From Bacillota bacterium (GTDB lineage: Bacteria; Bacillota; Desulfitobacteriia; Desulfitobacteriales; JAJXUE01), in NCBI GenBank assembly GCA_021783135.1, contig JAJXUE010000031.1, positions 1 through 35,398 on the forward strand: 35,398 nt of DNA, read 5' to 3'. Positions 6,045 to 32,537 of the stretch are shown piece by piece (within the stretch, counting starts at the first letter, position 1; the number at the start of each line of letters is the position of its first letter). The position numbers were made by a program, and so were the translations under genes. Below the pieces are notes generated by a model. It had not been told where the DNA came from, did no database searches, and saw only the letters and a list, made by a program, of their open reading frames with translations.

Positions 6045-6839
6045 TCACAGGTGCTTCGCATGTGAGGTTTGCCCCAAAATATGAAAGTGACTTCGTTCAT
6101 GAATGAGATTAACATCCAACAACAGTTGGCGGTTTAACAGGAGTTCCTGTGGTTTACCGTCGGCTGCTAATTGATGCGCTTCATTAAAAATAATCACCCG
6201 ATCGGCAATTTCCTCGACAATACTCAAATCATGCGTTGCAGTGATGATTGTCTTCCCCGCCTGACGCAAGCTGACCAGAAGCTCCACCAACCACCGTTGG
6301 GTACGCGGGTCCAAACCATTAGTCGGTTCATCCAACAGCAAAACTTCCGGGTTTACGGCAAGTACACAGGCAATTGCCACCTTTTTTTTCTCCCCGCCAC
6401 TCAACCTATATGGTGGCCGTGTCGCAAGATTAGCAATACCTAAGAGAGCTAATGTCTCCTCAACCCTAAGCTTAACATCCTCCGGATTTAAGCCCAACTG
6501 CAAGGGGCCAAACGCAACTTCATCCCAAACTGTAGCAGAAAACAATTGTGCATCTGAGTTTTGAAACACAAAGCCAACTTTCTGGCGAAACGCGCGGTTA
6601 AAATCCTCCATTTGCAGATTTTTTTCGTTTAATTCCGTACCAAAAGCGGCTATACGTCCCCGGCTTAAATACAATAAGCCGCTGATTAATTTTAATAATG
6701 TGGATTTACCGCTGCCATTAGCACCTAATATCACCACCGATTCTCGCGGATAAATCAGTAAATTCAATTCCTGCACCAGCGGTTGATCACTTTGATACCC
6801 AAAGCTAGCTTGGTCCAACACAAATATAGGTTGTTCCAT
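6045..6839 (-). CDS. cbiO: Cobalt/nickel ECF transporter ATPase CbiO
   Basis: This is a 264-residue ABC ATPase with Walker A GANGSGKST near residues 39-47, Q-loop FVFQNSDAQLF near 90-100, signature LSGGEKKK near 144-151, Walker B VLLLDEPTNGLD and switch ATHDLS. The spacing and the NSDAQLF segment are typical of CbiO/EcfA energy-coupling-factor ATPases. The C-terminal tail is His-rich (HERSHFH, SHAKHL), which could bind metal. The start overlaps the cbiQ stop by one base (TAATG), a sign of translational coupling. It powers import of Co2+ or Ni2+ with CbiM and CbiQ at the cytoplasmic membrane. Confidence 0.93.
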   Translation of the reverse strand: MEQPIFVLDQASFGYQSDQPLVQELNLLIYPRESVVILGANGSGKSTLLKLISGLLYLSRGRIAAFGTELNEKNLQMEDFNRAFRQKVGFVFQNSDAQLFSATVWDEVAFGPLQLGLNPEDVKLRVEETLALLGIANLATRPPYRLSGGEKKKVAIACVLAVNPEVLLLDEPTNGLDPRTQRWLVELLVSLRQAGKTIITATHDLSIVEEIADRVIIFNEAHQLAADGKPQELLLNRQLLLDVNLIHERSHFHILGQTSHAKHL

Positions 6840-7786
6840 TAAAAGTTGCCCCCCAACGCTTTGTCACTAACAAAGAGCAACAAACTTAGTAATATACTTA
6901 ACAATACTGCCGCCCAGTCCCAAAGCTTGAAGTGAAAGCTGCTCATGGTTTTAATTTCACCGCTATACCCGCGCGCCAACATGGATGCGTAAACTTCTTC
7001 GCTCATGGCCTGAGACTTGCCAAACAAAGTACCCATCGACGCGGCAATAAAATGCCGGTTTTCTTGCAAACTTCCAGGACCAAGCATACGGGCCTTGCGG
7101 GCAAAAAACATGTCTTCCACCAGTGCTAAAAGCACAAAAATGTACCGATACGTCATCTCGAGCGTCGTAATAAAGATTTTAGGTACAAAAAGAATGCGCA
7201 GGGCTTTAAGCAATTCCGGCCACCTAGTAGTCAAGGTTAGCAGGGCTGCCAGTGATACTGAATTGCCAACCCGCAGCATAACCAAAAGGTTACCTTTAAC
7301 ACCTTGTCGCGTAATCGCAAGTGTAGCGGGAAAATTCCAAGGTCCCACGCGCAGCACGTGACCAAAGTTGAGCAACGTAATTAGCGGATCTCCGGGACGT
7401 AGCCAGTTGAACAAAGCCGGAAGCAGCATTACTCCGGTAAATAGCGGCACAACGAGCCAAACCCGCTTCACAAACAACCCTAAAGGAACGTACGAAAGTA
7501 GCGCCAATAATACTAACGCCGCATACGCCAACAATAAAAGCACAGGATTTTGGACTATAGCTATCGCTAAGAGCAAGAAAAAGAAGCCGATGAGCTTAGA
7601 CCTAGGGTCAAGGCTCTGCAATAACCCTTGTTTTGCCGCTAATTCTTCGGAAAAGATGGAATCACGCACCACCCGCGCAAGTTCAAAAAGTGTCTTTTCG
7701 ACAAAATTTTTCTTACTGCGAGCACCCATGCAACCACACGGGCACATACCTATATCATTTTCTTGGAGCCACGTCGGAAGGTCCAT
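6839..7786 (-). CDS. cbiQ: Cobalt/nickel ECF transporter T component CbiQ with Cys-rich N-terminus
   Basis: The product is about 315 residues. Residues 70-310 form the EcfT/CbiQ transmembrane domain, with several hydrophobic helices and the two cytoplasmic coupling signatures (MTYRYI and MLARGYSGE) that contact CbiO. About 55 residues of soluble N-terminal extension precede it and include CPCGC at about residues 15-19, a potential metal site. The chosen ATG gives MDLPTWLQ and follows GGGG at a usable distance. It overlaps the end of cbiM by 32 bp. Extensions of this sort occur in some anaerobes' CbiQ/NikQ, but their role is not known to me. Confidence 0.9.
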   Translation of the reverse strand: MDLPTWLQENDIGMCPCGCMGARSKKNFVEKTLFELARVVRDSIFSEELAAKQGLLQSLDPRSKLIGFFFLLLAIAIVQNPVLLLLAYAALVLLALLSYVPLGLFVKRVWLVVPLFTGVMLLPALFNWLRPGDPLITLLNFGHVLRVGPWNFPATLAITRQGVKGNLLVMLRVGNSVSLAALLTLTTRWPELLKALRILFVPKIFITTLEMTYRYIFVLLALVEDMFFARKARMLGPGSLQENRHFIAASMGTLFGKSQAMSEEVYASMLARGYSGEIKTMSSFHFKLWDWAAVLLSILLSLLLFVSDKALGGNF

Positions 7787-8798
7787 GCTTCTTATCCCCT
7801 TTTGCGCCAAATCGCCGCACCACAACGGCTATGAGCAGGATTAGGATAACTCCTACAATAGCTGCCGCAATATAGCCAACTGCCTGCTGCCAAAAATTTT
7901 GGCCCAAGCCGGAGATACCGTAACCTGGCATAAGTGGTTTCCACAAATCGGCAAATTTTTGCATGCCCATAGGAACATACCCTAGCTTAGCTTTGATTGC
8001 CTCCGTACCCCATTCGCCCCAAGCTGTACCGGGTGCCAATAGGCCAACCGGCACCAGCAACACCAGTAAAACTCCAACCGGTATCAGTTTCCGCCAGTTT
8101 AGGTTCGCCGTATTGGCCGTTGAGTTACGTAATTCCAACAACTGTGGCGATGTCTTCTGCAGATAAGCTACTACCAACCCTGTCACCACTGCTTCGACCG
8201 GACCAGCTACTAATAAGTGGGCCAGGGACATAGCTGGTACTGCTACGCTAAGACCATACGGGTTATATAGAGGAGTACCGTCGGCAGCATGAAATAACAG
8301 TGGTTGCAAGCCAAGCTCTATCCCGGCAGCTAAAGCCGCTAAATTAATCCCCACATAACCGCCAATCCCAGCTGCTAGCCAGCGCCGTTTAGCAGTCAAC
8401 TGACTTCTCCCTGCGATTAATCGATAGATACCATAAGCTACAAAAGGGAGGATAAAAGCCATATTAAACACATTTGCCCCTAGGGCTAAAATGCCGCCGT
8501 CCCCAAAGAACAGGGCTTGGATTACGAGGGCGATAGTGATGGAAATAAAAGCAGCCCATGGGCCCAAAACTACAGCCAACAAACCTCCGCCCACGGCATG
8601 CGCCGTTGTTCCATCAGGAATTGGGACATTAAACATCATTATCAAAAAGGCAAAGGCGGAACCAATTGATAACAGTGGAATATACTTTGCCTTTAATGTT
8701 TTCGCTGTTTTATAAGAAGCCCCTGCCGCAACAATTGCGCTAGCCACTCCTAAAGTACCACAAGTCTGTGGACTTAAATAGCCGTCTGGGATGTGCAT
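7755..8798 (-). CDS. cbiM: Cobalt/nickel ECF transporter substrate component CbiM, with CbiN-like C-terminal part
   Basis: The product is 347 residues. It starts MHIPDGYLSP, the N-terminus that forms the metal site of CbiM/NikM (the amino group and His2). About six helices follow, with FNVPIPDGTTAHAVGG, a second conserved motif. After residue 230 comes an extra helix, an extracytoplasmic stretch (APGTAWGEWG to PGYGISG) and a final helix, the topology of CbiN/NikN. The protein is therefore likely an M-N fusion, which explains why no separate cbiN gene is present. The ATG has AAAGGGGG upstream and lies 14 nt after cooT. Metal choice between Ni2+ and Co2+ is not decided by sequence alone. The neighbour cbiJ argues for cobalt and cooT for nickel. 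Confidence 0.92.
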   Translation of the reverse strand: MHIPDGYLSPQTCGTLGVASAIVAAGASYKTAKTLKAKYIPLLSIGSAFAFLIMMFNVPIPDGTTAHAVGGGLLAVVLGPWAAFISITIALVIQALFFGDGGILALGANVFNMAFILPFVAYGIYRLIAGRSQLTAKRRWLAAGIGGYVGINLAALAAGIELGLQPLLFHAADGTPLYNPYGLSVAVPAMSLAHLLVAGPVEAVVTGLVVAYLQKTSPQLLELRNSTANTANLNWRKLIPVGVLLVLLVPVGLLAPGTAWGEWGTEAIKAKLGYVPMGMQKFADLWKPLMPGYGISGLGQNFWQQAVGYIAAAIVGVILILLIAVVVRRFGAKGDKKHGPSDVAPRK

Positions 8799-17724: not shown

Positions 17725-18669
17725 TCATCTAAGTATATCTGCCGCTTTTTCCTGCGGATTGACCTGAGACCAAGACGGTAGTCCCTCGACGTCTCCCACT
17801 ACTGTTAAAGCAAACGCTGCAACCCGATTACCTAGGCCTACAGCCGCACGATAGGTCCATCCCCTGAGCAGTCCGGACAGAAATCCAGCCACAAAAGCGT
17901 CACCTGCACCTAAGGGATCCACGATATGAGTAACCTTAGCTGCTGCGACAAATCCATCCTCAGTTGGTGTGGCAAAATAGGCCCCTTGCGCGCCGAGTTT
18001 TACCACTACTGCTTGCGCACCATTTTCAAGCAGACGCTGCGCTATAGCTTGCGGTTCAGTCTTGCCGGTAAGAATTTGACCTTCATCAAGGCCAGGCATA
18101 ACGATGTCGCATTGGCTTGCAAGTGGGAACAATACTTCTTTAGCAGTTTCAGCTGTCCATAACTTTAAACGGATGTTAGGATCAAAAACTACTTTGACTC
18201 CATTACGCCGGGCGATGGCAATAGCCTGGAGGACGGTTTCCCGGCAAGAAGAGCTCAAGGCAGGGGTAATACCCGTTATGTGTAAAAATTTAGCGGTGGC
18301 TATGTAGGCTTCATCTAAGTCTTGCGGCGTCATATAACTTGCGGCTGAGCCTTGGCGGTAATAGTAAATTTTGGGTTCCTGCATTGCTTGACGTTCTTTG
18401 AAGAACACTGCTGTAGCATGTTCATTGTCAAAAATAACGCGCGATATGTCTACTCCCTCACCGCGGATGTAGTTACGAATGTATAAGCCAAATTCGTCAT
18501 TGCCTAAACGACTAATCCAACCACAATGATGACCTAAACGTGACAGCCCGATAGCCACATCCGATTCAGCTCCGCCGATTTTCCTTTCAAATAACGCCGA
18601 ATGGCGCAGTGGCTCAATTGCTGTGGGAATGAATAGTACCATTGTTTCCCCAAGCGTTACCACGTCCAT
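17725..18669 (-). CDS. PfkB-family sugar kinase, probable second KDG kinase
   Basis: The product is 314 residues of the ribokinase/PfkB fold. The glycine-rich substrate segment KIGGAESDVAIGLSRLG lies near residues 30-46, and the catalytic motif DPLGAGDAFVAGF near 253-265 contains the expected aspartate base. The TGITPAL segment is shared with 2-keto-3-deoxygluconate kinases. It should phosphorylate KDG to KDPG at the expense of ATP. The ATG has GAGGAGG upstream. It lies 153 bp after the first kinase, with a stem-loop between them, and just before the chemoreceptor. A related keto-sugar acid could be the true substrate, since one KDG kinase would suffice. Confidence 0.85.
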   Translation of the reverse strand: MDVVTLGETMVLFIPTAIEPLRHSALFERKIGGAESDVAIGLSRLGHHCGWISRLGNDEFGLYIRNYIRGEGVDISRVIFDNEHATAVFFKERQAMQEPKIYYYRQGSAASYMTPQDLDEAYIATAKFLHITGITPALSSSCRETVLQAIAIARRNGVKVVFDPNIRLKLWTAETAKEVLFPLASQCDIVMPGLDEGQILTGKTEPQAIAQRLLENGAQAVVVKLGAQGAYFATPTEDGFVAAAKVTHIVDPLGAGDAFVAGFLSGLLRGWTYRAAVGLGNRVAAFALTVVGDVEGLPSWSQVNPQEKAADILR

Positions 18670-18822: not shown

Positions 18823-19848
18823 CTAACGTTGTACACGCCCGGATCCATCGCCTCCGGCTAGCGCCTCAACCTCAGCCAAAGTAACATGATTAAAGTCGCC
18901 CGGGATAGTATGTTTCAAACACGAGGCGGCAACTGCAAAATCTACGGCCTGTTGAGGTGTGTAATCGGCCAGCAAGGCATAGATTAAAGCGCCGCAGAAG
19001 GAATCGCCCCCGCCCACTCTGTCCACAATGTGAATCTTGTACTCGCGTGATTTTACAAACTGCTGACCATCATACAAGAGCGCCGACCACCCATTTTCAC
19101 TAGCTGAGAAGCTTTCACGCAAGGTAATTGCTACATATTTAAGTTTAAACCTTTCCATCAACTGTGTAGCAACTTGGCGATAGCCCGTATCGCTAAGTTT
19201 TCCCCCGGTAATGTCCGTGTCCTGGGCTTTGATGCCGAAAACCTTCTCAGCGTCTTCTTCATTGCCCACAGCTACGTCGACATACTCCATTAAACCGGAC
19301 ATGACTTGATTAGCCTTGGCCATGGACCACAGCTTTTTGCGATAGTTCAGATCACAACTAACGGTTAAACCCATTGCCTTGGCGGCTTTAACCGCCTCAA
19401 GCGTAACAGCAGTGGCGTCATCCCCTAGTGCCGGCGTGATTCCGGTAAAATGAAACCAATCCTTACCCGCAAAAGCAGTCTGCCAATCGATTTCACCCGG
19501 TTTAATTCCTGCTATGGACGAATTAGCACGATCATATACTACAACGGATGCTCGCTGTGAAGCTCCGGTCTCAGCAAAATAAATACCCAGACGCTCGCCG
19601 CCCCACTGGGTGTGGTCGACATTAACACCATAGCGCCGCAAATGGTTAACCGCGGACTGGCCAAGCGGATTTTGTGGAACCTTAGTCACGAAATAACTCT
19701 GCATTCCATAGTTTGCCAAGGATACAGCTACATTAGATTCTCCACCACCATAGGTAACGTCCAGTGAATCAGTTTGCACCAACCTCTGGTATCCCGGCGG
19801 GGAAAGACGCAACATAATTTCGCCGAAAGTAACTACTTTTTTAGACAT
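18823..19848 (-). CDS. kdgK: 2-keto-3-deoxygluconate kinase
   Basis: The product is about 341 residues of the PfkB family. The segment VTYGGGESNVAVSLANYG is near residues 30-47, TGITPAL near 130-136, and HIVDRVGGGDSFCGAL near 282-297 with the catalytic aspartate. The last motif reads GGGD instead of GAGD, which is tolerated in this family. The enzyme makes KDPG for the aldolase encoded just upstream. The ATG at 19848 is preferred to that at 19860 because AAAGGA abuts the earlier codon and leaves no spacing. It is directly downstream of eda in the same run of genes. Confidence 0.9.
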   Translation of the reverse strand: MSKKVVTFGEIMLRLSPPGYQRLVQTDSLDVTYGGGESNVAVSLANYGMQSYFVTKVPQNPLGQSAVNHLRRYGVNVDHTQWGGERLGIYFAETGASQRASVVVYDRANSSIAGIKPGEIDWQTAFAGKDWFHFTGITPALGDDATAVTLEAVKAAKAMGLTVSCDLNYRKKLWSMAKANQVMSGLMEYVDVAVGNEEDAEKVFGIKAQDTDITGGKLSDTGYRQVATQLMERFKLKYVAITLRESFSASENGWSALLYDGQQFVKSREYKIHIVDRVGGGDSFCGALIYALLADYTPQQAVDFAVAASCLKHTIPGDFNHVTLAEVEALAGGDGSGRVQR

Positions 19849-19894
19849 TTTTATACCCATTCCTTTCTCTATGCATCATTTATCCGCGCCCAAA

Positions 19895-20536
19895 CTATTG
19901 TCTGGCTTGCTTAACCTGCGCCACAAATTGTTGTGCCGTAGCACTAACCAAAGCAAAATCGCCCTGTTTGGCGCCAGCGGTCAATTCCCCCCCTACCCCT
20001 ACTGCCAGACAACCGTTTTTAATCCATTGAGCAACATTAGCCAAATTCACTCCTCCTGTAGGAATGATTTGCACATGCGGCAACGGGCCCTTTACTGCTT
20101 TAACATATTCCGGTCCTACAGCACTGCCGGGGAATAATTTGACCACATCCGCGCCCGATTCCAAGACCGTAAGTATTTCAGTAATTGTCATAGCTCCCGG
20201 CATGCTGAGTTTGCGATAGCGGTTGCAGAGTTTGATCGTTTGCGGATTAAAACCGGGGCTAACGATAAACTCTGCACCTGCCAGCAAGGCCGCTCGCGCA
20301 GTTTCACTATCTAGTACAGTTCCTGCCCCAATAATTACTTCCCCGCTGGCATAGACCTGAGCCAATTGCTTGATTACATCTAGCGCTCCCGGCACTGTCA
20401 TCGTAATTTCAATTATATCTACTCCACCTTGGCGGACTGCCTCTGTGATCTGCATAGCTTGCTCTGGGCTTTCAGCTCGTACAACAGCAACAATACCGGT
20501 AGCTGCAATTCGTTGAAGACACTCTTCTTTAGTCAT
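19895..20536 (-). CDS. eda: KDPG / 4-hydroxy-2-oxoglutarate aldolase
   Basis: The product is about 213 residues, the usual size. Characteristic stretches are VAVVRAES near the start, VDIIEITMTVPGA with the catalytic glutamate, EVIIGAGTVLD, AEFIVSPGFNP, and DVVKLFPGSAVGP with the Schiff-base lysine. PTGGV near the end is the phosphate loop. The enzyme splits KDPG to pyruvate and glyceraldehyde-3-phosphate in the cytoplasm. The ATG at 20536 has GGGAGG upstream. It is 24 nt from uxaA and precedes kdgK, so the lower end of the pathway is encoded together. Confidence 0.95.
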   Translation of the reverse strand: MTKEECLQRIAATGIVAVVRAESPEQAMQITEAVRQGGVDIIEITMTVPGALDVIKQLAQVYASGEVIIGAGTVLDSETARAALLAGAEFIVSPGFNPQTIKLCNRYRKLSMPGAMTITEILTVLESGADVVKLFPGSAVGPEYVKAVKGPLPHVQIIPTGGVNLANVAQWIKNGCLAVGVGGELTAGAKQGDFALVSATAQQFVAQVKQARQ

Positions 20537-20559
20537 AAATAAACCTCCCACTCATTGAG

Positions 20560-22074
20560 TTATAAAGTAACGCCGGTTTTAAAAATAGCGATTTCACGAA
20601 ATCCCATGTCTTCCGCCTTGGTTTTTTCTCCCTCTGCCACATTAAGCACGTGGGACCACAATTGCTCCGCAAGTTCCATCATACTCAAGCCCGAGAGTAA
20701 CTTCCCGGCATCGAAGTCCATCCAGTTTGGCTTGCGACGATATAATTCACTGTTGGTGGCTATCTTCACTGTCGGCACACACGTCCCCAAAGGAGTACCT
20801 CTACCGGTAGTGAACAAGATAATCTGGGCCCCTGCGGCCGCCAAAGCCGTTGCTGCAACCATATCGTTGCCTGGCGCAGCTAAGAGATTCAGTCCCTTAA
20901 GTGAGCACTTCTCACCATAACGCAGAACATCTACGACCGGTGAGTTGCCGCCTTTTTGAGTACATCCCAGCGACTTGTCCTCTAATGTCGATATACCACC
21001 TGCCTTATTGCCAGGGGATGGATTTTCATATATAGGCTGTTGGAAAGACATAAAGTAGCTTTTGAAGTCGTTGATTAAGCTGACAACTTTAGTGAAAACT
21101 TCACTGCTCACTGCTCTGTTCATTAGTATCGATTCTGCACCAAACATTTCCGGCACTTCAGTCAGAAGGCTGGTTCCGCCCGCTTGAATTAGCAGGTCGG
21201 AGAGCACCCCTACCAGGGGGTTAGCTGTAATGCCGGAAAGCCCGTCGGAACCACCGCATTTTAGCCCGATGGTTAGTTCTGCAGCCGGGCATGGCACTCG
21301 AACAAATTTTTCGGTAACCCCGACCAATTCGCGAATAAGTGACACCCCAGTCTCAATCTCGTCTTCTACTTCTTGCGCAACCAAAAACTTAACCCGCTCC
21401 GAATCGAAGTCACCGAGAACTTGTTTGATTGCGGCAACATTGCTGTTCTCGCAACCTAAACCCAGCACTAAAACCCCGGCGGCATTAGGGTGGTTTATCA
21501 AATCTGCCAGTATTTGCTGCGTGTTGACTTGATCTTCTCCCATTTGCGAACAGCCGTAAGGATGCTTAAACTCGTAAATGCCATCCAGATTAGTCCGCTC
21601 CGCCAGCTCGTTCCAAGCAGTCTTGGCGATAATTTCAGCAGTTCGATTGACACAACTGACTGTAGGAATTACCCAAATTTCATTGCGGATGCCAACTTTT
21701 CCATCGTGGCGACGATATCCCTGAAAGGTGGTCCCTAGCTTTGCTGCCTCGAGTTCCTTGACCCCCGAGCGTTCACCCTCTGCCTGTAAGCCGGGTTGGT
21801 ATTGATACTCTAAAAGCTCTCCGAGATTGGTCTTGAGATTATGCGTATGCACATGCTCTCCTGGGCTGACTTGTACTGTGGCGTGACCAATCGGGACGCC
21901 GTATTTGATCACATTTTCTTCCGCCCCAATTGAGTTTATGGCCAACTTATGACCGCGCGGAATATCTCCGTTTAATATTATCTGCCGATCATTGATGTTG
22001 ATTTTTTCACCTGCGTGAAAATCCCTTAAGGTTACAACAACATTATCACGCGCATTAATTTGTAAGTAGTCCAT
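20560..22074 (-). CDS. uxaA: Altronate dehydratase
   Basis: The product is 504 residues, close to the usual 495. An N-terminal SAF domain (residues 1-95) has a HVHTHNLKT segment with three histidines, and the large UxaA domain follows. That domain shows GYRRHDGKVGIRNEIWVIPTVSCVN, FKHPYGCSQ, LGLGCENSN, LKCGGSDGLSGITANP and FTTGRGTPLG. The enzyme dehydrates D-altronate to 2-keto-3-deoxygluconate with an iron-type metal. The ATG has GGTGGGG upstream. It is 28 nt after uxaB in the same operon, and together they form the altronate branch of galacturonate breakdown. Confidence 0.95.
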   Translation of the reverse strand: MDYLQINARDNVVVTLRDFHAGEKININDRQIILNGDIPRGHKLAINSIGAEENVIKYGVPIGHATVQVSPGEHVHTHNLKTNLGELLEYQYQPGLQAEGERSGVKELEAAKLGTTFQGYRRHDGKVGIRNEIWVIPTVSCVNRTAEIIAKTAWNELAERTNLDGIYEFKHPYGCSQMGEDQVNTQQILADLINHPNAAGVLVLGLGCENSNVAAIKQVLGDFDSERVKFLVAQEVEDEIETGVSLIRELVGVTEKFVRVPCPAAELTIGLKCGGSDGLSGITANPLVGVLSDLLIQAGGTSLLTEVPEMFGAESILMNRAVSSEVFTKVVSLINDFKSYFMSFQQPIYENPSPGNKAGGISTLEDKSLGCTQKGGNSPVVDVLRYGEKCSLKGLNLLAAPGNDMVAATALAAAGAQIILFTTGRGTPLGTCVPTVKIATNSELYRRKPNWMDFDAGKLLSGLSMMELAEQLWSHVLNVAEGEKTKAEDMGFREIAIFKTGVTL

Positions 22075-22101: not shown

Positions 22102-23610
22102 CTATTTTGCCAATACCTCGACAAGTGCCTTATGCATGCCTTTTTGCAGGATTGCTGCTAAATGTCCCGCGACCTTTTCACTCAACCCACTTCTGCTATT
22201 GAGATTTTCACCCCACAAACTAGCATCGCTCAACAAGCTTTGGGTCAAGTTCTGAATAGATGCAGAGGTGCCGTCATATACCGACCAAGCTTTCTGCAGC
22301 TTCTGCAAGGCCGCTTGATCATCCTGTAAGGTGAACTCTCCCTGCTCACGCTTACCTGTCAGCCGATCCTCGTGTATCTCACCTTTGTATAAAGCCAACA
22401 ACGCCGCAAAGGAAAAACTCAACTTCTCCGGAATACAGGCATTGCGCTCAATGTAACCCAGCAAAGACGGTACAACGCGCGTTTTAAACTTGGAAGTGGA
22501 ATTCAACAGGATGCTCAAGAGATAATGTTTAATATAAGGATTTTGGAAGCGTTCCATTACCGCATTAGCAAAATCGGTGAGCATCGCAACATCTAGATTA
22601 ATTGAAGGGATTATCTCTTCAAACATCACTTCACGCGTATATTGACCCAGCAGGTTATGATCCACCATTTCTCCGACAGTATCTAACCCGAACAGGAATG
22701 CTACGGGAACACATGCCGTATGAGCGCCATTTAAGATCCGTACTTTACGTGTACGATAAGGGCTCATATCATCGGTCCAAATAACGTTGAGACCGGCCTG
22801 CGTAAAGGGCAACCGTGCTTTAATTGCTTGAGGCCCTTCAATTACCCATAAATGGAACAATTCCCCAGTATCGAGGAGCTGATCCTCATACCCTAAACGT
22901 TGGGCAATTGCGGCAACCTCATCTTTGGGATACCCGGGGACAACGCGGTCAACCAAGGAATTGAGGAAGTAGTTATGTTGCTCCAGCCAAGTGCGAAAAG
23001 CTGCGGGCCAACCCCATTCATCCGCCAATCGCAAAACAATGCTGCGCAAATTGTCTCCGTTTCGATCTATCAATTCGCACGGAATAATTACCATGCCTTT
23101 GCTGGGATCACCGGCAAAGTGTTGATAACGATGATACAGGTAAACAGCTAATTTTCCGGGAAATGAAGCCGGAGGCTTCGCGTCAGGACGATCTTCCGGA
23201 TTATAGGCGATGCCCGCTTCAGTTGTGTTCGATACGACAAACTCAATTGCCGGATCTTCGGCGCAGCGCAGGTATTCCGCCCATTCAGTATACGGATTTA
23301 TGCCGCGGCTAATCGAGGTAACGAGTTGTTCTGCCGCGACCGCTTCACCATCGCGCATACCCCGCAAAATTAGATTATATAAGCCATCTTGTTCATTTAA
23401 TTTGTTTACCAGACCACCCGCCAAGGGCTGAATAACAACAACTCTACCATTGAAAATTCCCTGTTTGTTCATGCTATCAAACATCCAATCGACAAAGGCT
23501 CGCAAGAAGTTTCCTTCGCCAAACTGAATTACCCGTTCCGGTAGGGCCTGATAGTTTTGTGGTTGCGCTTGTAGCGCATGCCCAAGCATAGCTTTGTTAA
23601 GTCTTTCCAA
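22102..23610 (-). CDS. uxaB: Tagaturonate reductase (altronate oxidoreductase)
   Basis: The product is 502 residues of the mannitol dehydrogenase superfamily. The N-terminal Rossmann part includes VIQFGEGNFLRAFVDWMFD, VVVIQPL and SNTTEAGI, and the catalytic domain carries VPCELIDRNGDNL with the usual active-site pattern. RTRKVRILNGAHTACVP supplies the catalytic lysine and asparagine. It reduces tagaturonate to altronate with NADH. The start is TTG at 23610, with GAGGGGA at good spacing. It lies 18 nt after the IolB-type gene and 27 nt before uxaA. With UxaE present, fructuronate can also enter through this enzyme. Confidence 0.94.
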   Translation of the reverse strand: MERLNKAMLGHALQAQPQNYQALPERVIQFGEGNFLRAFVDWMFDSMNKQGIFNGRVVVIQPLAGGLVNKLNEQDGLYNLILRGMRDGEAVAAEQLVTSISRGINPYTEWAEYLRCAEDPAIEFVVSNTTEAGIAYNPEDRPDAKPPASFPGKLAVYLYHRYQHFAGDPSKGMVIIPCELIDRNGDNLRSIVLRLADEWGWPAAFRTWLEQHNYFLNSLVDRVVPGYPKDEVAAIAQRLGYEDQLLDTGELFHLWVIEGPQAIKARLPFTQAGLNVIWTDDMSPYRTRKVRILNGAHTACVPVAFLFGLDTVGEMVDHNLLGQYTREVMFEEIIPSINLDVAMLTDFANAVMERFQNPYIKHYLLSILLNSTSKFKTRVVPSLLGYIERNACIPEKLSFSFAALLALYKGEIHEDRLTGKREQGEFTLQDDQAALQKLQKAWSVYDGTSASIQNLTQSLLSDASLWGENLNSRSGLSEKVAGHLAAILQKGMHKALVEVLAK

Positions 23611-23628: not shown

Positions 23629-24441
23629 CTATTTCTTGGTTTCCAACTGGCGTAATTCAACAAAATCCGGATCGTCATGCGGCACCAATTTTCTCCCTAG
23701 CGTGCCCGCCATGAACCACAGATAATAAACTTTAACTGATGGTGGGGCTACTACCGGATGGTAACCAAACGGAATATTAACCGTATCCATGTCGCGAATT
23801 AAAACAGCTTCATCAAGTTCACGGTCTTCCGAGTATAAAACTTGGATGCCAAAACCATTGGCCGGGCTAACCCGAAAGTGATATATTTCTGCCAATTTGG
23901 TTTCTTCGCCCGGTACATAGCGGTCATGCTTGTGTGGTGGAAAACTCGACCAGTTACCAGGATTACTGAAGGTTTCACCCACTACAATGCGGTCAACGTT
24001 TCCCTCCCCATTATCCGTAATGATGTCATGTACATCACGCTGCCAAATTAAACCACCGCGATGATTGACGATTACCTGCTCTGGGGTAACCGCGAAGGCT
24101 TTAAATTTCTTTTCTGCCTCCACCTTACACAGCGCAGCTTCAAAATCATCGCTAAGTGACTCTACCCGAAAGCTACTGTCGCGCGGTATATAGACTGTGG
24201 CGGCAGTACCAGAAAATACATCCTTTCTTTGGCCTAGGTGCTTAAATTCCTCACCGTCCACAGCAATATTAGCTTGGCCGCTTAAAATAACTAAAGCTAT
24301 TTCATAAATACCTGATAACTCGGTACAGCTTTCACCTGATTTTAACTTAACCATGTCAAAGGCCATAAGACCGCCATCTGCCGCACCAACCACTTGTTGC
24401 AAACCCTGATATGGTTGCGCCTTAAAATATAGTTGTTCCAT
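23629..24441 (-). CDS. iolB: IolB-family isomerase (5-deoxy-glucuronate isomerase type)
   Basis: The product is 270 residues, the size of IolB, with two cupin halves. The metal ligands of the KduI/IolB fold are visible: H170 and H172 in PPHKHD, E185 in KLAEIYHF, and H228 in FGYHPV. IolB isomerises 5-deoxy-glucuronate to 2-deoxy-5-keto-gluconate in inositol breakdown. No other inositol ring genes (iolC, iolD, iolE, iolG) are nearby. Instead it lies between a Gfo-type oxidoreductase and uxaB in a hexuronate cluster that lacks UxaC. The chemistry is an aldose-ketose uronate isomerisation, like that of UxaC, so a role on galacturonate or glucuronate is plausible. The ATG has GGGGG upstream. Confidence 0.88.
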   Translation of the reverse strand: MEQLYFKAQPYQGLQQVVGAADGGLMAFDMVKLKSGESCTELSGIYEIALVILSGQANIAVDGEEFKHLGQRKDVFSGTAATVYIPRDSSFRVESLSDDFEAALCKVEAEKKFKAFAVTPEQVIVNHRGGLIWQRDVHDIITDNGEGNVDRIVVGETFSNPGNWSSFPPHKHDRYVPGEETKLAEIYHFRVSPANGFGIQVLYSEDRELDEAVLIRDMDTVNIPFGYHPVVAPPSVKVYYLWFMAGTLGRKLVPHDDPDFVELRQLETKK

Positions 24442-24481: not shown

Positions 24482-25543
24482 TTAGAGTTCAAACTTGACC
24501 GTGCGATTTTCGGCGTTGCTTTGTGCGGCCAGTTCAATAATCCGAATCGTATTGCGAGCTTGCTCCGGTTTCACGCAAAGGTCAGCACTCTTTACTATAG
24601 CCGCATAAATATTCGCGTAAAAATCAGGATAAGCACCCGGCAAAGTCTCAATTTTGCCTAAGCAATGCAGTCCGCCAAAATCCGTATTGAGCATCCCCCA
24701 TTGCTCCTGGGGTTCAAGTCCCCAACTAGGATCGCTAACACCACTCGGCGCAAGCCCTTTTTTAAGCATTTCTTCCTGTCCATCCAGGCCGTACTTGACA
24801 AAAGACCCCTTATTACCATGGATAACAAAGTGCGGTCCCCGTTCCCGTACCAACATCCCGGCCTTGAGAGTAACCGTGAGCTCAGAGTAATCCAACCTTA
24901 ACTCAAAGCTGTCATCAATTTTGCTCTCCTCCCGCTGCCGGCAGAGCTTGGCCGTGACCGATCTGGGCGTTCCAAACAGAACCTGAGCCTGATCGATGAG
25001 GTGCGAACCTAAATCGTACAAGATTCCCGAACCTAAACCAGATTCTTCTTTCCAAGTATTGGGTCTGATATAGTTCAGGTATCTGTCGTAATGGGCCTCG
25101 TACTCAACAATACGACCCAGCAGATTCTCTCGTACGATTTGCTGGATTGTGCGAAAATCGCCATCCCAACGTCTATTTTGAAACACGCTTAAAATTAACT
25201 TCTGGCTTTCAGCTATATCAATAAGCTCTTGTGCTTGCTGCGCAGTAACTGTGAACGGCTTTTCCACAACTACATGTTTGCCATGCAGTAAAGCTTGCTT
25301 CGCCAACTCATAATGCAATGCATTCGGCACCGCAATAACAACAAGTTCTAGCTCTTGGTCCTGCCACAGCACCTCAACATTATCCACTACCGTAACCCAG
25401 GGATATCGTTCCATCGCCTTGTGGCTATGGCGTTCAACCACTTTGGTTAGGCGTAAATTCGGAACTGCATTGATAATGGGCGCATGAAAAGCTTGTCCAG
25501 CCATGCCATACCCAATCAGGCCAACATTAAGCACTCGGTTCAT
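24482..25543 (-). CDS. Gfo/Idh/MocA-family oxidoreductase, IolW-like
   Basis: The product is 353 residues with an N-terminal Rossmann fold (NVGLIGYGMAGQAFHAP) and the family motif VVVEKPFT. A C-terminal domain follows, with FQNRRWDGDF, GSGILYDLGSHLIDQ and NKGSFVKYGLDGQEEML. The last two stretches are characteristic of the IolW/YdgJ branch, which includes NADP-dependent scyllo-inositol dehydrogenase. The substrate here may be a uronate or polyol entering the same pathway, since the gene sits between the IolB-type gene and the M24 gene. The ATG has GAGGTGGAGA upstream. Inositol use is an alternative. Confidence 0.88.
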   Translation of the reverse strand: MNRVLNVGLIGYGMAGQAFHAPIINAVPNLRLTKVVERHSHKAMERYPWVTVVDNVEVLWQDQELELVVIAVPNALHYELAKQALLHGKHVVVEKPFTVTAQQAQELIDIAESQKLILSVFQNRRWDGDFRTIQQIVRENLLGRIVEYEAHYDRYLNYIRPNTWKEESGLGSGILYDLGSHLIDQAQVLFGTPRSVTAKLCRQREESKIDDSFELRLDYSELTVTLKAGMLVRERGPHFVIHGNKGSFVKYGLDGQEEMLKKGLAPSGVSDPSWGLEPQEQWGMLNTDFGGLHCLGKIETLPGAYPDFYANIYAAIVKSADLCVKPEQARNTIRIIELAAQSNAENRTVKFEL

Positions 25544-25581: not shown

Positions 25582-26661
25582 TTATCGTTCCAGAATTAAT
25601 GAACGGCTAAGCTCCAACTCTCCAACTCTAACTTTTTGCGACGGAAAGTTTCCACTAAATGTAAGCATTTGTAATCCTTGCTCCGTAAGAAGCACTGTAT
25701 CTTCTGATTTAGCGCCTTGGATAGTCGGATTCCAGGCAAGCGCCTGTCCGGTTTGGATTAGCCTTGTCGCATCGGGCGTAGCCTTGGCCTCCCTAGATTG
25801 GTAACCTGCAATACCACCTTGGTGATGATATTGCCATTCGCCAGGAAATCCGGCCCGGGCATAGGCGTCTTGCCCAATCTTAAACACACTTCCGAGACTG
25901 ACACCGCGACGTGTCGCAGCCAACATCGCCGCGTCCACTTCTATCACAGCTTGTTGCTTGGCTGCCAATTCGGCTGAAATTCTACCAAAATGAACTGCTC
26001 TTGATACAGAAGCTACCAAGCCCCATTTTCTCGCGCTCAACACCAAAAGAGCATAATCTTGCACAACATTATCTGTTGGCAGAGGATGGCGGTAGGTCTT
26101 AGCCCTCATATCCCCTCCGACTAAGCACACCACCGGTTCCATACCAAGTTCACAGCTAGCCTTGGCCATTCGAGCGGCAATTTGGTACTCAGTTTCACCC
26201 CGGCCAAACTCTTGCGCCGTGCGCTCTACGACTTCTCCCGCTAATCTACCCAAAATTTGATATTGTTTTTGCTCAAACGGTGTTAATACGAGACGCATTT
26301 GCAAAAATTCCTCAGCCAATTGCTCATCGTTGGCAACCCGCAAACCCTCACTCAGGGTTTGCACAAGCTTGTCTTTTTCGTCTTCGGCATACCAAGGGTA
26401 TGTTCTCACCTGCTCACAGATGCGATTTACTCCCTCTTCATGCCAAAGTCGCTCTCCTTCAACATTGTTGACGATCAATTCCACACAATCAGGGCCGATA
26501 AAAATCGCTCCAATGCCCATTTGGCTGGCTATGTTAACAAAAAATCTACCTCCCGTTAACCAAGCCAAATTTAATTGTGACTGAACGATTACCCCTTGGT
26601 AATCTTTATGCGCTAGCATAGACCTAATCATTTGAATTTTTATGCTTGTTTCTTCGTCCAC
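25582..26661 (-). CDS. M24-fold (pita-bread) peptidase homologue lacking metal ligands
   Basis: The product is about 360 residues with an N-terminal creatinase-type domain (about 10-130) and a C-terminal M24 domain. Active M24 enzymes bind two metals with D, D, H, E and E. Here (numbered from the GTG at 26673, four codons upstream) the first two aspartates align with V211 and S222 in VLSARKWGLVASVSR. The histidine H284 is kept, the first glutamate is missing (region ALAWNPTIQG), and the last is kept as E324 (GAKSEDTVLL). Peptidase activity is therefore unlikely, although binding could remain. The likely start is GTG at 26661, with AAAGGTGG upstream. It lies between the TRAP transporter and the sugar acid enzymes. 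Confidence 0.8.
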   Translation of the reverse strand: MDEETSIKIQMIRSMLAHKDYQGVIVQSQLNLAWLTGGRFFVNIASQMGIGAIFIGPDCVELIVNNVEGERLWHEEGVNRICEQVRTYPWYAEDEKDKLVQTLSEGLRVANDEQLAEEFLQMRLVLTPFEQKQYQILGRLAGEVVERTAQEFGRGETEYQIAARMAKASCELGMEPVVCLVGGDMRAKTYRHPLPTDNVVQDYALLVLSARKWGLVASVSRAVHFGRISAELAAKQQAVIEVDAAMLAATRRGVSLGSVFKIGQDAYARAGFPGEWQYHHQGGIAGYQSREAKATPDATRLIQTGQALAWNPTIQGAKSEDTVLLTEQGLQMLTFSGNFPSQKVRVGELELSRSLILER

Positions 26662-26736
26662 TAACAGAGCCACCTTTGTATTACAATCCTTACTACGCCT
26701 AGTATAAAATTTATAAAATATCTGTCGCGTGTGTCA

Positions 26737-28026
26737 TTAATGAACCAGCAATCGCGGTAAAGTCATGGAAATAGCGGGGATATACGTAAGCAGCATTAGC
26801 ACAACAAACATAACTGCTAAAAATGGCAGCATGGCCTTGTATGCCTTTTCCAACGACAACCCTCCGATCGAACAACCGACAAATATAGCGGCACCGATCG
26901 GTGGAGTAAGCAAACCAATTCCCAAAGTCAGCATTAACATTACCCCAAATTGAATCGGATCCATACCAACTCGCACAGCGATTGGCAGTAAAATAGGGGT
27001 GGCAATTAAGATAAGTGGGGCCATATCAATTACCATGGCAAATAGCAGCAAAATAATATTGATCAATAACAAAATCACATATTTATTACTGGACAAGCCT
27101 GTAACAAAACTCATTACCATATCAGGAACGTGCAAGTAGGCCATAAACCAGGAGAAGGCTTGAGATGCAGCAATCAGAAAAAGCACCACAGACAATTTGC
27201 GAAAAGTACCCAGCACAATGCTATGAAACTTTTTAAACCCGACTTCTCTAAATACCAATGTTACCATGATCAAGGCATAGACAACGGCGACAGCTGCCGA
27301 TTCATTTGCCGTAAAAATACCGGCAAGAACTCCGGATACGATGATTAAAGCAGTGGTAAGACCCAGAAGTCCTTCCCAAATCACGCGAAGCCTTTCTTCT
27401 TTTGGAATCTTCTCACCTTTCGGATAGCGACGCCGAATCGAAATGATATAACTGGTAATCATCAATGAAATACCTAGCCCAATACCGGGTACCAAGCCTG
27501 CAGCAAATAAACCGGCAATCGACACGCCGCCAGCGGCAAGTGAGTACAAAATGATATTATGACTGGGCGGCAACAGTACCCCTTGAATTGACCCCGTACA
27601 GGTAACACCGACCGCAAAGTCGGTATCATACCCTCTTTCACGCATCATTGGGATCATGATACTGCCAATAGACGAAGCATCAGCCACGGCTGAACCGGTA
27701 ATTCCGCCAAAGAACATGGTTGAGAGCACATTTACGATCGCTAAGCCACCCCGGAACCGTCCTACTAATAAATTCGACAGACGGATTAAGCGAGTGGAAA
27801 TTCCTCCTTCACCCATGATTTCACCCGCAAAGATAAACAGTGGAATCGCCATAATTGAGAAAGAGTTCAAGCCATTAAGCATGCGTTGCCCAACAACTTC
27901 TAACGGCACACCTAAATAAAAACCTGTCAGCACTGACGCTACGGCTAAACCCAAAGCTACGGGGACTCGCATTAAAATCAGCAAAATAAACGACCCTAAC
28001 AAAATTGCAACCGCAATTCCTGACAT
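26737..28026 (-). CDS. dctM: TRAP transporter large permease (DctM/TctM-type)
   Basis: The product is 429 residues, very hydrophobic, with about 12 predicted helices. Characteristic segments are IPLFIFAGEIMGEGGIS, GGITGSAVADASSIGSIMIP, LPPSHNIILYS and LGIGLLTPPIGAAIFVG. The start overlaps the dctQ stop by one base (TAATG), so the two membrane subunits are translated in tandem. It imports a solute in symport with sodium or protons, together with DctP. Given the cluster, the solute is probably a hexuronate. Confidence 0.93.
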   Translation of the reverse strand: MSGIAVAILLGSFILLILMRVPVALGLAVASVLTGFYLGVPLEVVGQRMLNGLNSFSIMAIPLFIFAGEIMGEGGISTRLIRLSNLLVGRFRGGLAIVNVLSTMFFGGITGSAVADASSIGSIMIPMMRERGYDTDFAVGVTCTGSIQGVLLPPSHNIILYSLAAGGVSIAGLFAAGLVPGIGLGISLMITSYIISIRRRYPKGEKIPKEERLRVIWEGLLGLTTALIIVSGVLAGIFTANESAAVAVVYALIMVTLVFREVGFKKFHSIVLGTFRKLSVVLFLIAASQAFSWFMAYLHVPDMVMSFVTGLSSNKYVILLLINIILLLFAMVIDMAPLILIATPILLPIAVRVGMDPIQFGVMLMLTLGIGLLTPPIGAAIFVGCSIGGLSLEKAYKAMLPFLAVMFVVLMLLTYIPAISMTLPRLLVH

Positions 28027-28550
28027 TAACCTTCCTCCTCACCGACAAATAACCACTTAAGACCGGAAATAATTATTACCAGTCCGGTAACAGGAACGGC
28101 GACATAGCCTAACCCATTCGGCAATCCGGTTGCCGGCAACTGTGAGCTCCAAGTTAGCACTGTAAATTTATAGCCTTCAATCAGTAGGAGTAAGCCAAAA
28201 CCGATGGAGAGAACATCCGACAGACGATCGAGCCAAGGGCGTAACCATGCAGGTGCCCTATCATAGATAATTGTCACGCTCAAGTGACACCTTCTGCCCA
28301 AACCAGTCCCGATACTTAAAAAACCATACGCAGTCATAAACAGTAGCGCGACTTCTTCCGACCAAGCGGGGGTATTCCGCAACACATACCGTGCAAATAC
28401 TTGATAAGCTACAATGGCAACCATTATTACCATCATGTAAGCCCCGATCCATTCCACAACGGTATCAATGGCTTTAACAACCCTTCGCATTTTACCTTTC
28501 AATCCTTTGGCCCGTATCGGTAGCTCCTGGTCTTTAATTTTCAACCTCAT
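28026..28550 (-). CDS. dctQ: TRAP transporter small permease (DctQ-type)
   Basis: The product is 174 residues with four membrane segments at about 38-55, 70-90, 105-125 and 140-165. TPAWSEEVALLFM (near residue 62) and the pattern ARYVLRNTPAW are typical of DctQ proteins. It forms the membrane complex with DctM. The ATG has AAGGATG upstream. It lies 75 nt after the solute-binding protein gene. Confidence 0.92.
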   Translation of the reverse strand: MRLKIKDQELPIRAKGLKGKMRRVVKAIDTVVEWIGAYMMVIMVAIVAYQVFARYVLRNTPAWSEEVALLFMTAYGFLSIGTGLGRRCHLSVTIIYDRAPAWLRPWLDRLSDVLSIGFGLLLLIEGYKFTVLTWSSQLPATGLPNGLGYVAVPVTGLVIIISGLKWLFVGEEEG

Positions 28551-28624: not shown

Positions 28625-29632
28625 CTATTTCACTGCGCGAATTTGTGTGATTAAACTTTGGTAGGGTTTGCCGTACTTGGCGTACAAAGGTGCTACCGCC
28701 TGTTGCCATTCAGCTGGATTGACTTGAGAAATAACATTACCGTTAGCAATAGCTGCTTTTTTAGCTGTTGTCTCTAATTGAGTCCAAGCTTGACGTTGCA
28801 CAGTTTGAGAATCTATGGCTGCTTGCATAATAATTTTTTGATCGGAAGGAGAGAGCTTGTTCCAAGTTGCTTGACTGGCAACTACAATTTCCGGAACGCG
28901 GGAATGCTCATCTTCTGTCATATATTTTGCAACCTTGTAGTGATTAGTTGAATAATAACTGGGCCAGTTATTTTCGGCGCCATCTACTACACCTGTTTGC
29001 AGTGCACTATAAACCTCGCCGTAATCCATTGGCGTTGGCGATCCTCCCAAGGCTTTGACAAGGTCGATAAAGATATCAGATTGTTGCACCCGAATCTTCA
29101 TGCCTTTAAGATCACTTGGATGAATAACTGGGTGCTTCGAATTGTAAAAGTCTCTCGCACCGGAATCGTAATAAGTCAGGCCCACCATTTTGGCCGATTG
29201 CAACGAATTTAACATTTGCGTACCGATTGGTCCGTTAAGCACATCCCACATCTGAGCACTACTGTTGAAAAGATATGGCAAGCTAAACACGTTTAACTCG
29301 TTGTCAAATGAGGCCAAAGGAGAAGCGTTAATGCGTCCTAAGTCGATTGCTCCCATTTGCAACTGCTCGATTACCGTTTTCTCATCGCCAAGTTGGGCAT
29401 TCGGGTAAACCACAATGTTTATCCGTCCATTAGTACGCTCTTTTACCAACTTAGCAAACTCGTTGTCACCGGTTACTGTAGGATAATTCGGGGCCTGATT
29501 ATCTGCCAGACGCAGTGTCATGGTCTCTTGAGGTGCCTTTGCACCTTGTTGTTGTGGGGTTGTCCCACATGCAGTAAGACTAAGCGCCAACCCCGCACTA
29601 ATAGCAATAGCTGAGATTTTTCTCCAATTCAT
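28625..29632 (-). CDS. dctP: TRAP transporter solute-binding protein (DctP-type), lipoprotein
   Basis: The product is 335 residues. The signal sequence ends LSLTAC, with Cys22 as the lipobox cysteine, so it is likely anchored on the outside of the cytoplasmic membrane. The DctP fold follows: LRLADNQAPNYPTVTG, GRINIVVYPNAQLGDEKTVIEQLQMGAIDLG, then GMKIRVQQSDIFID whose arginine normally salt-bridges to the solute carboxylate. This supports an acid solute, and the neighbours point to a uronate. The ATG has GGGAGG upstream. A 110-nt gap separates it from uxaE. Confidence 0.93.
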   Translation of the reverse strand: MNWRKISAIAISAGLALSLTACGTTPQQQGAKAPQETMTLRLADNQAPNYPTVTGDNEFAKLVKERTNGRINIVVYPNAQLGDEKTVIEQLQMGAIDLGRINASPLASFDNELNVFSLPYLFNSSAQMWDVLNGPIGTQMLNSLQSAKMVGLTYYDSGARDFYNSKHPVIHPSDLKGMKIRVQQSDIFIDLVKALGGSPTPMDYGEVYSALQTGVVDGAENNWPSYYSTNHYKVAKYMTEDEHSRVPEIVVASQATWNKLSPSDQKIIMQAAIDSQTVQRQAWTQLETTAKKAAIANGNVISQVNPAEWQQAVAPLYAKYGKPYQSLITQIRAVK

Positions 29633-29742: not shown

Positions 29743-31257
29743 TTAATGATCCGGCCAAAGCTTTTGCAAATGTGACTCTATATGCTTTGCCAATACACCA
29801 GCATACACTTCTTCATTTTCTTCCAGCGAGCGAAAAATTTCGGAACGGAACAAATATTCTCCCTGGTTATTCCGATTGGTAAGAAGTAAGCCGTACGCAA
29901 TGTGCATGAGCTGCCGGCAATCATCCATGTCAAGTAACCCTGCCAATTTGGAATCTTCCACTGTGCTGAGTGGCGGAAGGTTAGCCAAGTTTGGTGTAAC
30001 GTGATAATATTGCAAAGCCTCACTAAAATTAGTCAATGCATAAGTATGCATCGCCCTATACAGTTCTGGCTTATTCTGGGCAATTACTCTTACAGCTTCC
30101 AGCCAACTGGTACCGGCGGTCTTAACGTGAACTCGTCCGCCCGTTTTAGTGCCCACTATGGAGAATATTGTGAATTTATCGCTGCCGGAGTGAATGCTTA
30201 ATCTATACCCAAACTCATCTGCTATTTGAGCATGCAAGGAAAACTCTGCGGCAAATTGCTCTACGTCCCCTTTGTAGTCGATTCCCTTTTGGAACTCGCC
30301 ACAAAATCGCGGTGCTAGACTCGCAAATGCTACCTTAGCCTCTATGAGCTCTCTGGCCACAAAATAATGCGCTTGCGGCGTTGTGGGGACTGTAGTCTCA
30401 TCAATCGATATTTCAAAGTCAATTTGACGCGAGCTGATACAGGACTTATATACCTTACTGATAAAGGTGATTGCTTTGACATAGGTTAAGACGATACGCT
30501 TTAGTTCGTCACAAGAAAAAGTAATGGTATTTAAGCCTAGGCCAAAGTTTTTGTTCAGATAAGTTCGTTCATAATATTGCTTACTTGGATCGGGTAATTT
30601 TTCATACTCTGCATTAACTACACCACTTGGTAAATCCGTAATGTAATTTGCTAAATGCTCTGAGCAATCCAAGGTAATCATCGAATACCCCGCATCCAGG
30701 GCTAGACTGATTTCACCTTCAGTTTTTAGATGATCCCCATCTGCACCAAAACCGTTCGTATAATCTTCTTGAAATACTGCCCATGTAGCAGCATCGAGTA
30801 CCTGTCTAAAAGTCCGTTCGGTCAAGGTCAGTTCCCGCATAGATTGCTGTGCCAATACAGGCCTCACTCTCTCTGCCCTTTTTAGCGCCCGTAAATGGCC
30901 AGGTGTAGCTACGCCAAGTCGATCACCGAGCCCGATGGTCATTCCCTTGCGTCCTAGCGGGATTGGCGCCGTGAACGGAAACCAACGCCGCAGTTTTTGT
31001 GCATTTTCGCTAATCAACGGGCACACCTTGACTAACTTACCTTGAATTCTTGATTCGACGCCCTTAAAATCATCAAACATTGCGCCATTTTCTATTTGAT
31101 TAACGCATACTAAGAATTTCTCCATGGCATTTTTCACCAAACATACTACACAGCCAGCTTCTCTATGCACGGAATTCGGATAAATTTTAGTATGTTCCGA
31201 CCATAAAGAACTGATTATACTTTCTAGTTGCCCTTGCACCAACATCTCTCCCTTCAC
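29743..31257 (-). CDS. uxaE: Tagaturonate/fructuronate epimerase
   Basis: The product is 504 residues. The family motifs are LGRKGMTIGLGDRLGVATPG near 101-120, QQSMRELTLT near 137-146, ATWAVFQEDY near 157-166 and GFGADGDHLKT near 169-179. SIHSGSDKF lies further on. UxaE interconverts D-tagaturonate and D-fructuronate, so glucuronate can be fed into the altronate branch without uxuA or uxuB. None of those is in this window. The start is uncertain: GTG at 31257, or ATG or GTG a few codons later, since GGGAG lies between them. It is separated from the ROK gene by 50 nt and opens the catabolic part of the operon. Confidence 0.9.
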   Translation of the reverse strand: MKGEMLVQGQLESIISSLWSEHTKIYPNSVHREAGCVVCLVKNAMEKFLVCVNQIENGAMFDDFKGVESRIQGKLVKVCPLISENAQKLRRWFPFTAPIPLGRKGMTIGLGDRLGVATPGHLRALKRAERVRPVLAQQSMRELTLTERTFRQVLDAATWAVFQEDYTNGFGADGDHLKTEGEISLALDAGYSMITLDCSEHLANYITDLPSGVVNAEYEKLPDPSKQYYERTYLNKNFGLGLNTITFSCDELKRIVLTYVKAITFISKVYKSCISSRQIDFEISIDETTVPTTPQAHYFVARELIEAKVAFASLAPRFCGEFQKGIDYKGDVEQFAAEFSLHAQIADEFGYRLSIHSGSDKFTIFSIVGTKTGGRVHVKTAGTSWLEAVRVIAQNKPELYRAMHTYALTNFSEALQYYHVTPNLANLPPLSTVEDSKLAGLLDMDDCRQLMHIAYGLLLTNRNNQGEYLFRSEIFRSLEENEEVYAGVLAKHIESHLQKLWPDH

Positions 31258-31307: not shown

Positions 31308-32537
31308 TCAGGAAATCATGTTGTCTGAGCCTTCCAATGTAAACAGATTTTTGATTACACCTAAACATGCTCCATAAAAAGCTGCGTTTCTTCCGATAGC
31401 AGAAATTTCTATTCGTGTATCACGAGCTATCTCCGGAAATGCATGGCGGTTCAGACTCTCCAACAAAGGTTCTATCAAAACGGTCTGACTTTCAGATAAA
31501 ATACCACCGAGGCACACGATTTCCGGATTATAAAAGTTTATGACATTGGCTATCCCTATTCCGATATACCATCCCGCCTGTCTAATCAACTGCCAAGCAT
31601 AGGAATCAACTTCATTAGCCGCGGCAATGATGTCATCAATTCCTATTTTCCCCTTCTGCTGCCAAATGGCTTTAAGTCCATCGTTATCCTGACACAGGGG
31701 CAGTTCATTATTTGCCTTTCGTACTAAGGCAGAAACGGCATAGATACTTTCTAAACAACCTTTATTGCCGCAATTACATAAGGGGCCGTCTTCAACTACA
31801 ACCATGTGTCCCATCTCTCCAGCATGGCCATGAGCACCATAGAGCATTTTATTATCCATAATTACCCCGGCGCTAAAGCCCTCACCAAGGTTAACGTAGA
31901 CCAGATTTTTAATATCTTTACCTTTACCAATTGTGTACTCAGCTAAAGCTGCCGCATGAGGATTATGCTCAACATGTAATGGCAGGTTTAGTCGTGCTTC
32001 CAACCACTGTTTTACTGGGATATTGCACCACTGTTCACCCAAACTTGGCGAGCGCTTAATTACTTTGGTAGTAATGTCCAACAAACCGGGAAATGCAAAA
32101 CCGGCGCCATGGATTTTCTTGACAGGAATTTCAGTCTCCGCAATTAACTCTTCTATTTTTTCTACCACTGAATCTATAGCTGTTTTGGGATTTTCCATAT
32201 CGATTTCGGCTTCCAATACTTTAACCGGACGAAGTAACAAATCTACAATTCCAATAGTTGTTCTATTTCTTGTTATCTCGGCTCCAATCACATATCCGGC
32301 ATCGGGGCAAATTTGCAGTCGCATTGGGCGACGCCCTCCACTAGATTCACCCAAGCCTATTTCTTGAACATAGCCTAATTCAACCAATTCCCGCACAATA
32401 CCAGTAATTGCCGCCGGAGTTAACCTAGTTAGCTCCGCTAATTGCTGGCGGGAAATGTTTTCGTTTTCTCTAACAATATTCAAAACATTAATTCGGTTAA
32501 GTTTTTTAACTGACTCTAGATTGCGAGCATCCTGCAT
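31308..32537 (-). CDS. ROK-family transcriptional repressor
   Basis: The product is 409 residues. An N-terminal winged helix-turn-helix at about 12-75 (ISRQQLAELTRLTPAAITGIV) is followed by the ROK domain. The zinc site is kept as H244, C254, C256 and C261 in HMVVVEDGPLCNCGNKGC. The kinase catalytic aspartate of the NDANA motif is replaced by P193 in EHNPHAAALAE, so this is a regulator and not a sugar kinase. Such NagC/XylR proteins usually repress the operon beside them until a sugar or its derivative binds. The ATG has GGGAG upstream. It heads the uronate cluster, and the effector is unknown. Confidence 0.92.
   Translation of the reverse strand: MQDARNLESVKKLNRINVLNIVRENENISRQQLAELTRLTPAAITGIVRELVELGYVQEIGLGESSGGRRPMRLQICPDAGYVIGAEITRNRTTIGIVDLLLRPVKVLEAEIDMENPKTAIDSVVEKIEELIAETEIPVKKIHGAGFAFPGLLDITTKVIKRSPSLGEQWCNIPVKQWLEARLNLPLHVEHNPHAAALAEYTIGKGKDIKNLVYVNLGEGFSAGVIMDNKMLYGAHGHAGEMGHMVVVEDGPLCNCGNKGCLESIYAVSALVRKANNELPLCQDNDGLKAIWQQKGKIGIDDIIAAANEVDSYAWQLIRQAGWYIGIGIANVINFYNPEIVCLGGILSESQTVLIEPLLESLNRHAFPEIARDTRIEISAIGRNAAFYGACLGVIKNLFTLEGSDNMIS

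Follow-up and report, generated by a model that had tools for sequence, protein, structure and literature searches.

A KduI/IolB-type bicupin protein as a probable replacement of the uronate isomerase UxaC in hexuronate gene clusters of Bacillota

Which enzyme performs the first step of hexuronate degradation in a bacterium whose gene cluster encodes the later steps and lacks uxaC? The question is raised by a stretch of 35,398 nucleotides (the window, i.e., the whole stretch of DNA analysed) from a Bacillota bacterium. The first-pass annotation had recognized genes for every step from tagaturonate to pyruvate (UxaE, UxaB, UxaA, KDG kinase and Eda) and, in the place of UxaC, an IolB homologue 18 nt from uxaB. 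Both points were confirmed here, UxaA and the kinases by family and context. The gene in question (23629..24441, minus strand) is an intact open reading frame of 270 amino acids with an ATG start and no internal stops, and its start codon is preceded by a G-rich stretch. Its product and the orthologues of that product are referred to by the working label IolBx.

The array follows the order uxaE-TRAP-M24-Gfo/Idh-iolB-like-uxaB-uxaA-eda-kdgK, and the genes from a ROK regulator to the KDG kinase are co-directional on the minus strand and separated by -1 to 110 nt. The IolBx gene lies 18 nt upstream of that for UxaB, the tagaturonate reductase, which has a TTG start (22102..23610; NF002969, 674.5 bits against a cut-off of 359). 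This is followed by UxaA, an altronate dehydratase of the GD_AH family (20560..22074; PF20629, 339.6 bits; PF04295, 160.4 bits), an Eda-type KDPG/KHG aldolase (19895..20551; NF005119, 297.1 bits against 238), a PfkB-type KDG kinase (18823..19860; PF00294, with 577.5 bits to the kinase half of NF041633, below the cut-off of that fusion) and a second PfkB kinase resembling KDG/KDGal kinases (17725..18669, minus strand; NF040938, 246.9 bits, below the cut-off of 400). UxaA and both kinases were assigned by family and context, their scores not reaching equivalog cut-offs. UxaA scored below the cut-off of the galactarate dehydratase model TIGR03248, and we infer an altronate rather than a galactarate dehydratase because uxaB adjoins it. 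On the other side of the IolBx gene lie a Gfo/Idh/MocA oxidoreductase (24482..25543; NF008607, 337.5 bits) and an M24-like protein (25582..26673; PF00557, 48.9 bits), two genes between the TRAP genes and the IolBx gene that the first-pass annotation had omitted. They are followed by the TRAP large permease DctM (26737..28026; TIGR00786, 393.6 bits), the small permease DctQ (28026..28550; PF04290) and the solute-binding protein DctP, a presumed sugar-acid binder (28625..29632; NF037995, 262.4 bits), and by the tagaturonate-fructuronate epimerase UxaE (29743..31257; PF16257, 629.3 bits). The ROK-family protein (31308..32537; PF00480 plus a winged HTH), syntenic in four other loci (L016, L018, L020 and L029), is the likely regulator of the cluster. 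Downstream of the cluster, the window carries an ordinary set of cobalt CbiM/CbiQ/CbiO-type transporter genes with a precorrin-6A reductase gene (5248-8798, minus strand).

The absence of UxaC extended beyond the window. No match to PF02614 was found in the whole assembly (2.71 Mb, 96.7% complete), and none of three first-look candidates matched when scored. IolD, which opens the inositol ring en route to the IolB substrate, served as the marker for the inositol pathway, and no match to TIGR04377 over cut-off occurred in the genome. The genome is therefore without a known hexuronate isomerase or inositol-ring-opening enzyme, and the IolBx gene is its single gene of the KduI/IolB family. UxuA was likewise without a match in the genome. 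Since UxaE is accompanied by UxaB and UxaA and not by UxuA, fructuronate must become tagaturonate. The presence of UxaE would make sense with an isomerase that also yields fructuronate, making glucuronate a likely substrate.

IolBx matched PF04962 (KduI/IolB) with 262.8 bits against a gathering score of 23.9; this was the sole Pfam family found by hmmscan, and PF02614 was not matched. The four metal ligands of the bicupin named in the first-pass annotation, three histidines and one glutamate (H170, H172, E185 and H228), are all present, and they are invariant in the 55 IolBx clade members examined. The predicted structure (pLDDT 82, low near the metal loop 169-176) matched the IolB structure 2QJV with a TM score of 0.84, followed by KduI at 0.61-0.70. 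In a profile alignment read by eye, E185 and H228 align with E203 and H245 of KduI, and W242 with an invariant KduI tryptophan. IolB and KduI share a chemistry in which the carbonyl of a uronate is shifted between C1 and C2.

We propose that IolBx is probably a hexuronate aldose-ketose isomerase, a non-orthologous replacement of UxaC built on the KduI/IolB fold. The TRAP transporter would import D-glucuronate and/or D-galacturonate, which metal-dependent IolBx would isomerize at C1-C2 to D-fructuronate or D-tagaturonate (we infer both the reaction and its direction). UxaE would interconvert fructuronate and tagaturonate, UxaB would convert tagaturonate into altronate and UxaA altronate into KDG, from which the kinase and aldolase would yield pyruvate and glyceraldehyde 3-phosphate.

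Relatives within the class offered a direct comparison of cluster versions. Among 83 class genomes, five others carried a close IolBx orthologue (64-72% identity) and three carried UxaC. The orthologues sit in M24-[Gfo/Idh]-IolBx-UxaB-UxaA clusters, some on short contigs, with one exception (G041) in which IolBx is followed by a gene other than uxaB. Two of the genomes (G008 and G009) possess the order TRAP-Gfo/Idh-UxaC-Eda-KDGK-UxaB-UxaA, where UxaC fills the slot that IolBx occupies in the window. Most proteins of these two clusters are 51-78% identical to those of the window, the TRAP proteins 64-78%, and the Gfo/Idh protein beside UxaC (L021/L022) is 61% identical to the product of 24482..25543. 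The likeness of transporter and Gfo/Idh in both cluster versions suggests the same imported substrate. Desulfosporosinus sp. FKB (G025) possesses both enzymes, with IolBx encoded in its uxaBA cluster and UxaC grouped with UxuA in another cluster. Acididesulfobacillus acetoxydans, whose chromosome is assembled as a single contig, carries IolBx and lacks UxaC. In Peptococcaceae bacterium CEB3, an ORF of MtaA/HemE-like methyltransferase type and an unassigned ORF (L018:5149-7370) are located between the TRAP genes and the M24 gene. The Gfo/Idh gene in the cluster prompted us to consider a Thermotoga maritima-type inositol route, which leads to tagaturonate; this route was rejected, as a Gfo/Idh/MocA gene is common to the UxaC and IolBx cluster versions in the class.

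The relationship between the two enzymes was examined in an unbiased census of 320 genomes from the class of Alicyclobacillus mengziensis (Bacilli-type; requested completeness at least 95%). UxaB scored over cut-off in 73 genomes, with UxaC present in 45 and absent in 28. A clade profile split IolBx (at least 343.8 bits) cleanly from other IolB proteins (at most 254.5 bits). IolBx was found in 24 of the 28 UxaB genomes without UxaC versus 5 of the 45 with it (Fisher p = 1.3e-10, kinship ignored). In all 24 the gene lay inside the region around UxaB that was analysed (about 5-11 kb); its order was often uxaA-iolBx-uxaB, the arrangement elsewhere being uxaC-uxaB-uxaA. On a ribosomal-protein tree, the IolBx and UxaC traits each change about ten times, and nine independent pairs gave about 4.2 opposite versus 1.5 same changes (sign test, median p = 0.45), a result that lies in the expected direction and is not significant because the independent changes are too few. 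Counts and synteny thus make for a strong association, which is suggestive and not proven once kinship is corrected for. The initial idea of an IolB-type substitute for UxaC is supported, at the level of sequence and gene context, by the exchange of the cluster slot, by these counts and by a clade set apart from the iol-operon IolBs. The replacement is most likely systematic across many Bacillota and not a single oddity.

Both enzymes occurred together in five of the 73 UxaB genomes, once (Melghirimyces, L033/G092) with UxaC in the same operon. Therefore, the term replacement does not fit every clade member, and some members may take another uronate. This co-occurrence favors the alternative that survives best, which we nonetheless regard as unlikely: that IolBx isomerizes a uronate other than galacturonate or glucuronate, such as D-mannuronate, D-taluronate or a modified uronate supplied by the M24-like protein, and so feeds fructuronate or tagaturonate into the shared lower pathway. 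It is also favored by clade members that accompany other transporters and dehydrogenases, and by the M24-like gene, which was found solely beside IolBx (13 of 29 UxaB neighbourhoods with IolBx versus 0 of 44 without). This gene is absent from the UxaC cluster versions and from most of the short uxaA-iolBx-uxaB operons. Its product belongs to the pita-bread family, has lost the canonical M24 metal aspartates according to alignments, and conserves the motifs RHxLPT, HHQGG and AWNP-I-G; it is possibly a metal-free creatinase-like enzyme. However, the close likeness of transporter and Gfo/Idh between the two cluster versions and the placement of IolBx in the UxaB neighbourhood of 24 of the 28 UxaC-less genomes argue against a different uronate. 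A broader reading, to which we give slightly less than an even chance, is that the bicupins of this clade make up, across Bacillota, another uronate isomerase family, one unrelated to UxaC that has taken its place on many occasions; the partner of this family would be a metal-free enzyme derived from M24, whose substrate is the same uronate or a modified form of it.

To place IolBx among its relatives, a genome collection was scanned; the single sequence as query gave no matches, and an alignment query gave 28 loci, mostly from Bacillota. Seventeen of these adjoin UxaA and/or UxaB, and UxaC was absent from 16 of the 28 genomes, which were searched along with the genome of the window (one 25-bit fragment counted as present). 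A phylogenetic analysis placed all uxa-adjacent IolBx proteins in one clade (support 83/86) free of iol-operon proteins. Twelve of the 13 iol-operon IolBs formed their own clade (100/98), the remaining one (L057) being a divergent second copy, and KduI was far off. Members of the IolBx clade located away from uxa genes were L030, L032, L034, L039, L041 and L051. The residues F116, D139, G155, T157 and W242 were present in all 55 IolBx clade members, whereas the 13 iol-operon IolBs mostly had R/K, N, V, V and N at these positions; at position 242, asparagine occurred in 12 of the 13.

This separation bears on a second alternative, namely that an ordinary IolB, a 5-deoxy-D-glucuronate isomerase, lies in a hexuronate cluster by chance and draws on a substrate made elsewhere. 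IolBx does exceed the cut-off of the IolB equivalog TIGR04378, by a narrow margin (220.5 versus 205 bits), and it shares the fold of 2QJV. Nevertheless, we consider this explanation very improbable, given the separate clade with its five residue switches, the consistent linkage to uxaA/uxaB, and a genome in which no IolD scores over cut-off and which thereby offers no known source of 5-deoxyglucuronate. Moreover, IolD exceeded its cut-off in seven of the 28 IolBx genomes, and all seven carry a separate IolB of their own in the iol region. A canonical inositol role of IolBx was rejected on the lack of IolD over cut-off and the separate clade, and the branch of proteins labelled 'IolB' to which it belongs is probably mis-named.

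Several loci showed other gene neighbourhoods. In most of five Bacillus, Paenibacillus and Aneurinibacillus loci (L036, L037, L038, L039 and L043), IolBx is preceded by genes for an aldehyde dehydrogenase and for an iron alcohol dehydrogenase and accompanied by a ribose-type ABC transporter, as judged from family scans of L036 and L038; uxaA/uxaB lie after it in four of the five loci. These gene sets suggest that a sugar or alcohol is oxidized to a uronate inside the cell. The gut bacterium Lachnospira eligens carries a plasmid-borne relative with 49% identity (L070:11992-12807), which is flanked by genes for a YhcH/YiaL-family protein and an SLC13 permease. Other IolB-like proteins, some of them very divergent (L017:11353-12381, L019:10534-11328 and L044:9917-11654), adjoin transketolase-like genes as read from the sequence, with ABC transporter genes in L017 and L044, and perhaps represent further substrate classes.

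The least probable explanation is that the upper step falls to a highly divergent, undetected uronate isomerase, with IolBx in an accessory role, for example as a mutarotase. In its favor, Bh0493 of Bacillus halodurans is a known divergent uronate isomerase, and two genomes (G306, locus L090; G396, locus L137) have uxaBA clusters with TRAP genes and neither enzyme. The explanation accounts neither for IolBx in the UxaB neighbourhood of all 24 UxaC-less carriers nor for the conservation in IolBx of four metal ligands that belong to an isomerase family. It follows from these two genomes that the absence of UxaC does not always call for IolBx. As a UxaC query against the PDB did not retrieve Bh0493, a divergent isomerase missed by PF02614 stays a caveat.

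If IolBx is indeed a hexuronate isomerase, many Bacillota would begin the use of pectin sugars and glucuronate with an enzyme of a second family. Genomes read as hexuronate-negative for want of UxaC, or as bearing an inositol enzyme, would need re-reading. The family would also offer a clean case of substrate change within one fold, spanning 5-deoxyglucuronate, 5-keto-4-deoxyuronate and hexuronate, for which the candidate switch residues are few. In the literature searched, we came across no description of an IolB-type hexuronate isomerase; the isomerase named in a 2019 review is UxaC, and the suggestion regarding KduI is mentioned there (PMC6353982).

Among known systems, UxaC (EC 5.3.1.12, amidohydrolase fold, PF02614) shares with IolBx the proposed reaction, the pathway position and, in relatives, the cluster slot, but is unrelated in fold and sequence. 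IolB (TIGR04378) has the same family, fold and metal ligands, with 31% identity at the profile level, and catalyzes an aldose-ketose isomerization of a uronate, as is proposed for IolBx. It differs in carrying Asn, Asn, Val and Arg/Lys where IolBx has Trp242, Asp139, Thr157 and Phe116, in belonging to a separate clade, and in that the IolBx genome has no IolD over cut-off. KduI, the 5-keto-4-deoxyuronate isomerase, has the same fold, the same ligand set and the tryptophan at position 242, whereas its identity to IolBx is about 20%. The precedent cited in the first-pass annotation is on record, as KduI of E. coli facilitates the conversion of galacturonate and glucuronate; the authors of that study also name indirect explanations, and the mutants they needed proved unobtainable (PMC3578941). 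The E. coli case is conditional and plays out alongside UxaC, whereas IolBx occurs in a genome without UxaC.
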